Assembly: GCA_017399905.1 (NCBI GenBank)
Contig: JAFQAR010000069.1
Coordinates: forward strand, 1-45,443
Length of the DNA: 45,443 bases
Reading direction: 5' to 3'
Origin: Bacteroidales bacterium
GTDB taxonomy: Bacteria; Bacteroidota; Bacteroidia; Bacteroidales; UBA932
Numbering within the stretch: the first letter of the stretch is position 1; the number at the start of each line of letters is the position of its first letter. Of the stretch, positions 29,359 through 30,376 are shown piece by piece. The position numbers and the translations under genes were made by a program. The notes under the pieces were generated by a model. The model searched no databases and was not told the origin of the DNA. It was given only the letters and a program-made list of their open reading frames with translations.

Positions 29359-29391
29359 GTCATTCCGAGGAACGAAGTGACGTGGGAATCT
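29359..29391 (+). repeat. Dispersed intergenic repeat motif upstream of prmC
   Basis: GTCATTCCGAGGAACGAAG followed by TGACGTGGGAATCTC is a second member of the motif class seen in the sufB leader (5987-6013). ATTCC (29362-29366) pairs with GGAAT (29385-29389). It lies 5 bases before ATG 29396. Just upstream, CGTTC-CGAA-GAACG (29335-29348) forms a separate perfect hairpin after ddl. Confidence 0.6.
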
Positions 29392-29395
29392 CATT

Positions 29396-30376
29396 ATGCT
29401 ATTGAAATCATTGATAAATAAAGGTGTGGAGACCATTTCAACGGCCTATCCCGAAAGCGAGGCCCGGGAGATGGTCTATTCCTTTCTGGAGGATCTTGTC
29501 GGGACCAAGAGACATACCCATATAGTCGATCCGGAATATGAGGTGGCTGACGAAGCGGCGGAGGTTGCGATGTCGGGTTTTGAGCGGATGGCATCGGGAG
29601 AGCCTCTGCAGTATGTTACCGGCTATGCCGATTTCTACGGACGCCGGTTCCATGTCACTCCTGACGTCCTGATACCACGTCCGGAGACGGAGATACTTTG
29701 CAGATCTGTCCTTGATCTGGCATCAGAGGGTGCAGGCTCGCCAGACCCCCGCCCCGCACCAAAGGTGCTCAGGCACCCCCTAGCCGGGGGTGGCATGTCC
29801 TGCGAGCCTGCACCCTCTGATGCATGCAAGCTGGACAGAATCAGAATTATGGATATGTGCACAGGTTCAGGATGCATTGCATGGACATTGGCACTTGATA
29901 TGCCTGGAGCTGAGGTTACGGCTGTGGACATTTCCGAAGGAGCGCTTTCGGTAGCTTCGTCGCAGGACTTCTCTGAGGAAATGGCCCGTACAGGATCCTG
30001 CGCTCCTAAGTTCGTCAAGGCTGATGTCCTTGCGGATGTTCCTGATACTCTTCGTGCCGGTGAAGGATTCGACATCCTTGTCAGCAATCCGCCGTATGTC
30101 ATGGACAAGGAAAAGGCTTTCATGCGCACCAATGTCCTTGACCATGAACCTCACCTGGCCCTCTTCGTTTCCGACGACGATCCGCTGGTCTTCTACCGTG
30201 CGGTTATCCGCTGGGCTCAGGCTTTGCTGAAGCCAGGAGGTATCGGCATCGTCGAGATAAACGAAGCCCTCGGTCCTGAGACGGCCGCTGTCTTCAAGGC
30301 AGACGGATTCGTCGACGTAAAAGTCATCAAGGATCTTTCCGACCGCGACAGGTTCGTCAGATTCAGATTACCCTGA
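29396..30376 (+). CDS. prmC: Release factor glutamine methyltransferase PrmC, with inserted palindrome
   Basis: SAM-dependent enzyme that methylates the GGQ glutamine of peptide-chain release factors, 326 aa; most relatives have about 280. The N-terminal helical domain ends in GEPLQYVTGYADFYGRRFHV and LIPRPETE. The Rossmann part has motif I MDMCTGSGCIAW, TAVDIS, and the catalytic N231-P-P-Y234. Residues about 109-143 (EGAGSPDPRPAPKV and onward) are extra, Pro/Gly-rich, and coincide exactly with the palindromic element at 29720-29823. The reading frame is kept, and the insertion falls in the linker between the two domains, so function is probably retained. Confidence 0.94.
   Translation: MLLKSLINKGVETISTAYPESEAREMVYSFLEDLVGTKRHTHIVDPEYEVADEAAEVAMSGFERMASGEPLQYVTGYADFYGRRFHVTPDVLIPRPETEILCRSVLDLASEGAGSPDPRPAPKVLRHPLAGGGMSCEPAPSDACKLDRIRIMDMCTGSGCIAWTLALDMPGAEVTAVDISEGALSVASSQDFSEEMARTGSCAPKFVKADVLADVPDTLRAGEGFDILVSNPPYVMDKEKAFMRTNVLDHEPHLALFVSDDDPLVFYRAVIRWAQALLKPGGIGIVEINEALGPETAAVFKADGFVDVKVIKDLSDRDRFVRFRLP
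29720..29823. repeat. Palindromic element with 22-bp perfect inverted ends inside prmC
   Basis: Bases 29720-29741 are the exact reverse complement of 29802-29823 (22 of 22; outer part ATCAGAGGGTGCAGG). Inside, ACCCCCG (29745-29751) pairs with CGGGGGT (29785-29791). Three exclusive short hairpins can also form: GCACC-AAA-GGTGC (29756-29768), GGTGC-TCAG-GCACC (29764-29777) and CACCCCC-TAGCC-GGGGGTG (29774-29792). It is much richer in GC than the flanks. If the unit is counted as 29722-29821 with a 2-bp GC duplication, the insertion is 102 bp, or 34 codons. MITE-like or REP-like, with no transposase. Confidence 0.85.

Follow-up and report, generated by a model that had tools for sequence, protein, structure and literature searches.

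Rickettsia palindromic elements (RPEs) are described as small (~150 bp) palindromic units that lie in frame in many unrelated genes (PMC10969869). REP and REPIN sequences are characterized as short palindromes found at the 3′ ends of genes in convergent or tandem order and occasionally within genes, and a CGTC-tagged REP class has been named for Bacteroidetes (PMC3733652). Bacterial MITEs and enterobacterial RU elements, when intragenic, are reported to be translated inside genes (PMC2759123). In nematomorph mitochondria, near-perfect inverted repeats occur in coding sequence, with template switching given as one possible mechanism (PMC6649704). Template switching is described as homogenizing the arms of inverted repeats and flipping their spacers (PMC8604942, PMC8794818, PMC7202029); in the yeast study the spacer changes are only 2–5 bp (PMC8604942).

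An earlier note, made from the sequence alone, had claimed a mobile-like palindrome in frame within prmC in the window analysed here, a stretch of 45,443 nucleotides from a Bacteroidales bacterium (contig JAFQAR010000069.1, forward strand). The reading we favour, at a probability of roughly 0.68, is that the palindrome belongs to a non-autonomous, dispersed element of ~100 bp, with a two-hairpin core and with arms rewritten by template switching. The features of the locus are as follows.

29396..30376, + strand: prmC, encoding the release factor glutamine methyltransferase (326 aa) and carrying the insert (TIGR03534; Pfam PrmC_N and MTS).
29720..29823, + strand: the complete palindrome of 104 bp, which encodes residues 109–143 (inverted-repeat search, folding and prmC comparison).
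29720..29743, + strand: left arm, specific to this locus; it pairs with the right arm, perfectly over 22 bp (inverted-repeat search).
29744..29799, + strand: conserved family core, GACCCCCG...GGCATGTC, 56 bp (recurrence in the own genome and congeners).
29752..29773, + strand: core hairpin 1, variable in sequence, with pairing kept across the family (pair count over the family).
29774..29792, + strand: core hairpin 2, CACCCCC-TAGCC-GGGGGTG, with hardly any variation (37 aligned copies).
29800..29823, + strand: right arm, locus-specific (inverted-repeat search).

Direct reading confirmed the 104-bp palindrome and its perfect 22-bp arms (29720–29741 and 29802–29823), which belong to 24-nt arms flanking the 56-bp core. 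When extended to 27 nt, the arms enclose 50 nt and reach 93% complementarity, and the unit tops the 15 inverted repeats of the whole window (≥16 nt, arms within 400 nt), whose other 27-nt inverted repeat is 74% complementary. As RNA, the unit folds at −77.2 kcal/mol (z = −11.0 against 200 shuffles, none of which was as stable). The core's single GGGGGT could pair with either of two CCCCC runs, so the nested alternative hairpins that had been proposed are possible. No T run was read after 29823, and the prmC copy thus does not have the form of an intrinsic terminator, a GC-rich stem followed by a T run.

The reading frame is intact, as claimed, and the 326-aa ORF scores 215.7 bits against the TIGR03534 curated cut-off for PrmC of 199.1. 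The stretch from RPET to CTGSG is 102–105 bp (34–35 residues) longer than in the prmC genes of three genomes (G026, G032 and G063), in whose linkers no long palindrome was found. The AlphaFold model of PrmC (30 sequences) has a mean pLDDT of 88.7, with values of 45–64 for the ten-residue blocks over residues 111–150 and of 75–98 for the others. The model thus places the insert in a low-confidence linker loop between the PrmC domains, in agreement with the site named earlier; most likely it is disordered there and neutral for the protein. The element-carrying prmC genes are those of G000, G007, G024 (reversed), G021 (degenerate, recognized by eye) and L127 (truncated core). A different palindromic insert is present at the same linker in the prmC of G087 (L054), and the linker may thus be a hot spot for unrelated palindromes.

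The core is not confined to this locus. A covariance model built from 37 copies gave seven matches in the own genome including the prmC copy (six of the seven individually listed), and BLAST also placed the core at further positions there, while the left arm of the prmC unit was unmatched by the other copies. Within the genus, which may be Cryptobacteroides, 39 of 400 genomes including our own have the core (E ≤ 1e-4), as do 8 of the 150 with completeness ≥90% and contamination ≤5%. A sample of relatives gave 8 of 61, again including the own genome and all of the same genus, and none of 24 sampled genomes from other families of the order has it. The covariance model found 5–34 matches per genome in all ten genomes chosen as positive and none in the five chosen as negative. 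The core hence recurs both in the own genome and in related Bacteroidales, and the encoded residues are missing from the three relatives above; the unit is not the solitary, conserved stretch of protein against which the earlier note had set its claim.

Beyond these samples, a pattern scan of named genomes returned at least 116 stretches; among the matches listed, all are MAGs of Bacteroidales, Bacteroidia or Bacteroidaceae, and many of their titles refer to the guts of ruminants. When the PrmC protein served as query against named genomes, 28 stretches came up, none of which was confirmed. Carriage of the element by phages or plasmids was considered and found no support, as there were no exact pattern matches among the viral contigs of IMG/VR and no match to the element in phage and plasmid collections. 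In Rfam, no family reached its gathering score for any of seven loci, the best by E-value being 34.7 bits against a gathering score of 78. The open-licence papers searched yielded no such palindromic family in Bacteroidales, which is weak evidence of novelty.

We collected 150 copies; sufficient flank and an unambiguous left edge were available for 139, and dereplication left 134. The family core consists of GACCCCCG, then the variable hairpin, then CACCCCCTAGCCGGGGGTGGCATGTC; it is 45–60 bp long in most copies and is flanked by arms of ~27 nt. Directly outside the core, left-hand TTCC and right-hand TxCA make up an internal loop, which is fully paired in nine of the 134 copies, the prmC copy among them. 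Sequence conservation ends at about position 7 outside the core, and pairing extends further: in a rigid register, arm positions 8–27 are paired in 46–74% of cases compared to 26–32% expected, with values near expectation from position 28–29 on. With gaps allowed, the arm ends peak at 24–28 nt and the arm score exceeds 12 in 110/134 copies, versus 0.15% of re-paired arms, the choice of left edge among candidate starts having slightly favoured pairing in observed and null alike. The other 24 copies score ≤12, 12 of these ≤8 and ten of these in a GC-rich subfamily. This subfamily, with a longer hairpin 1, comes from the RUG14513 and RUG345 MAGs (L113, L140, L158, L189, L198 and L216), and L198 and L216 each contain two copies separated by a few hundred bases.

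The 22-bp perfect ends of the prmC unit are thus locus-specific and not a conserved terminal repeat. The earlier note's claim of a mobile-like element holds as regards dispersal and fails as regards the 22-bp ends as shared terminal repeats; nor can these ends serve as the proposed handle for a parent transposon, since they differ between loci and what is conserved is the core with ~7 nt on each side. Hairpin 1 behaves like the arms, with 71 distinct sequences of 11–20 nt (a range outside which the 22-nt hairpin 1 of the prmC copy falls) and Watson–Crick pairing at 370 of 409 positions. L166 and L214, which come from a single MAG, have both arms in common out to ~27 nt and differ in hairpin 1, and these full shared arms suggest a mobile unit of ~100 bp. 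Another pair, L023 and L031, shares the inner 17 nt of the arms, and its outer arms are different yet paired. The GC content of arms is weakly correlated with that of the flanks (r = 0.29 intergenic, 0.16 coding), as computed with the GC-rich RUG genomes separated because they confound a pooled comparison.

Placement was determined for the 134 copies with a crude longest-ORF gene caller, which left 20 of them unclassed. Between two called genes lie 88 copies, namely 40 in convergent, 47 in tandem and one in divergent pairs, against a background in the fetched named loci of 59, 168 and 74 (chi-square p ~2e-11). In tandem pairs, the core strand is the sense strand in 36/47 (p = 0.0003). At positions ~23–27 of the intergenic copies, left arms are A-rich and right arms T-rich, some resembling bidirectional terminators, and TTTT occurs at right positions 19–34 in 20 of the 88. 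A further 26 copies lie inside ORFs, although a few of these calls may be spurious, and ten of the 26 are from the GC-rich RUG subfamily.

In-frame copies were found in at least six gene families, prmC, murB, truB, sufD, an RluA-type synthase and hemW. Profiles support the insertions in truB (L081 and L130, at differing positions), sufD (L082 and L167), the RluA-family synthase gene (L035), hemW (L184) and murB (L155, which is cut by a contig end), the NCBIfam matches of L155, L167 and L035 being below curated cut-offs. Five further murB copies (L207, L019, L022, L089 and L094) were assigned by common motifs and the ORF. The named coding copies read HPLAGGGMS or near in 13/17, and the other four are in another frame or strand (DMPPPARG, TCHPRLGG, APPSRGWHV and PPPGRGW). 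In the sufD of L082 (and L112), one element lies in frame near the 5′ end and a second, inverted, at the 3′ end.

The resemblance to RPEs suggested in the earlier note is borne out by these palindromic units in frame in several unrelated housekeeping genes, of which 13 of the 17 share one frame. The element differs in its Bacteroidales host, in the four coding copies read in another frame or strand and in arms that are not conserved between copies. By analogy, it appears to work like RPEs, a likeness in the mode of insertion and not necessarily in origin. Placement at gene 3′ ends is shared with REP and REPIN sequences and their RAYT systems (GTAG and CGTC classes); in contrast to these, the element is longer, has locus-specific arms, does not exceed 34 copies per genome among the ten counted and did not flank a RAYT gene at any locus inspected (30 of 55 Y1 matches). 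Like MITEs and RU elements it is small, non-autonomous and dispersed, with 5–34 copies without coding capacity in each of the ten genomes chosen as positive; unlike them, its terminal inverted repeats are complementary but unconserved, and no transposase was found. The coding palindromes of nematomorphs lie within conserved coding regions, whereas those of Bacteroidales are built around a dispersed core. Since the terminal repeats do not fit a MITE, and the observations on a conserved peptide as in RPEs and on RAYT linkage as in REPs point neither way, we file the element in no known class.

Orthologous sites show how the arms change. Between L163 and L165, a G–C pair is swapped to C–G across the two arms, and L165 shows complete pairing of the TTCC/TACA internal loop; at the same site, L225 has different arms that are still paired. 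We also compared 62 ortholog pairs (identity <99.5%, matched by predicted position within 300 nt) and found the core inverted relative to its flanks in ten, which represent five sites. In L126 and L191, the 57-nt core is identical but reversed within a 2.1-kb match of 94.5% identity. An ungapped count over 12 scored ortholog pairs gave 98 unchanged pairs, 13 double changes, 62 positions paired in only one member and 67 in neither; a thirteenth ortholog pair offered no positions to score. As the count is partly out of register owing to indels (e.g. a one-base bulge in L225), it carries little weight in either direction. The clustered, concerted arm changes of L163/L165 and the spacer inversions at five sites have the pattern of template switching, and on this pattern DNA template switching between arms would fit the sequences better than selection on RNA. 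The flips span ~57–67 bp compared to 2–5 bp in yeast, which makes recombination between arms an alternative for this part of the change. Independent reinsertion at hot spots could lie behind some of the differences at shared sites.

Arms and hairpin 1 that vary in sequence yet stay paired would also be expected of a structured RNA, whether a riboswitch, an sRNA or a 3′-end stabilizer, whose pairing is kept by selection on the transcript and which in prmC would regulate the mRNA. The position of intergenic copies at 3′ ends, and the sense orientation of the core in most tandem pairs, agree with such a role. However, selected RNA pairing should tolerate G–U and not A–C, and among isolated arm mismatches we counted 12 G–T against 25 A–C beside 2633 Watson–Crick pairs; the raw count (51 G–T, 103 A–C) has the same direction but was judged contaminated by over-extended arms, so the stricter count is preferred. 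In hairpin 1 there are two G–T and two A–C mismatches in 409 positions. G–U is thus not favoured over A–C, which argues against RNA selection, as do the flipped cores at shared sites, since a flip changes the RNA. The patchy presence of the element in the genus (39/400) and the lack of an Rfam family at gathering score for the seven loci weigh in the same direction, and we regard a structured RNA as improbable. On the core strand, the excess of A–C over G–T among isolated arm mismatches has p = 0.047.

Sites that are empty in one genome and occupied in another bear on where the arms come from. L224 (compared with L099) and L220 (compared with L153) are without the core, without both arms and without any palindrome, and in L134 the core and both arms of L201 are likewise missing with no palindrome left. 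This is difficult to reconcile with a core that landed in palindromes already present in the host, for instance terminator hairpins, which would then make up the arms. The A-rich left and T-rich right ends of intergenic arms, the location of most intergenic copies at convergent or tandem 3′ ends and a 10-bp hairpin in the element-free prmC linker of G098 are in keeping with that origin, but neither the prmC linkers of G026, G032 and G063 nor the empty murB of L090 holds a long palindrome, and we consider it very unlikely. The native terminator as a source of arms was accordingly disfavoured by the same three empty sites. A conventional MITE, with terminal repeats and a DDE transposase and with copies that are merely old and diverged, would account for ~100 bp, inverted ends, scattered copies, the absence of own coding capacity and the full arms shared by L166 and L214. 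Against it, the terminal repeats are unconserved across the family, and old, diverged repeats should not remain mutually complementary. Target-site duplications were not evident by eye in the few empty-site alignments, whose flanks are diverged; the prmC alignment that the earlier note had proposed provided empty sites in three relatives. A conventional MITE is therefore also unlikely.

Both sources of arm sequence may be represented at individual loci. In truB, L081 has a net gain of 102 bp over L130 by manual count, and neither arm is recognizably native. In murB, the only gene where a native arm is readable, the left arm of L019 is translated as EAVSAS, in the place of DAVSAV in the empty L090, and the right arm comes close to an inverted copy of the left; the murB left arm is thus, judging from this alignment, host sequence. 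Empty sites without arms, together with the host-derived arm of murB, suggest that the arms usually arrive with the unit and can be rebuilt from host bases.

In the reading we favour, a dispersed palindromic element with arms rewritten by template switching, the element would spread at low copy number within one gut Bacteroidales genus, settling mostly at gene 3′ ends and, within housekeeping proteins, in frame at stretches that tolerate it, where copies would simply be translated. The arms have no fixed sequence and would be repeatedly rewritten from one another at each site, probably through quasipalindrome correction, in which the polymerase switches template at the hairpin, so that they stay complementary. 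Such switching could draw neighbouring host bases into an arm and occasionally flip the core. A bolder and more tentative version, which we think possible but doubtful, is a mobile element whose ends are defined solely by mutual complementarity and are remade by host replication errors that absorb flanking codons into them; it would be recognized for movement by its folded shape and not by an end sequence, and would create new in-frame protein loops in housekeeping genes.

The mover may be a hairpin-recognizing HUH/Y1 transposase acting in trans. Y1_Tnp genes are present in 15/15 genomes chosen as positive compared to 7/10 chosen as negative (a status established one by one for all of the ten but G105 and G107), and the association with the element is weak at best. 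The full-length element with a transposase sharing the ends, which the earlier note had envisaged, was not found. Of 55 Y1_Tnp matches, 30 loci were fetched, 20 of them belonging to genomes selected as positive; the core is present in none of these 30, and no transposase-bearing element sharing the ends and no transposition event were identified. A few close pairs of inverted cores were inspected as candidate full-length transposons and rejected, as the genes checked between them, sufD (L082) and a nitroreductase (L157), include no recognizable transposase; the ORF between the inverted cores at L168 has no Pfam match. Outside the 30 fetched loci, a Y1-type (IS200/RAYT-like) transposase lies ~0.8 kb from a copy in the own genome (L002:2-706, G000 C21), with another gene between them.

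These results add a palindromic element of RPE-like kind, present in frame in at least six families of housekeeping genes in uncultured gut Bacteroidales. Its copies form a natural series for tracing, across many loci, how arms are rewritten and spacers flipped, and the persistence of long palindromes, as well as the way new protein loops arise from them, becomes directly testable. The results also call for caution, as covarying stems are not proof of RNA function: here both the arms and hairpin 1 covary while G–U is not favoured and cores flip.

The stretch GTCATTCCGAGGAACGAAGTGACGTGGGAATCTC, at 29359–29392 of the window, ends shortly before the prmC start codon, and its folding there is insignificant (z = 0.45). 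We presume that it may belong to the CGTC-tagged REP class. Related stretches occur in frame in the murB of L014, an RluA-family gene of L035 and the prmC of L063.
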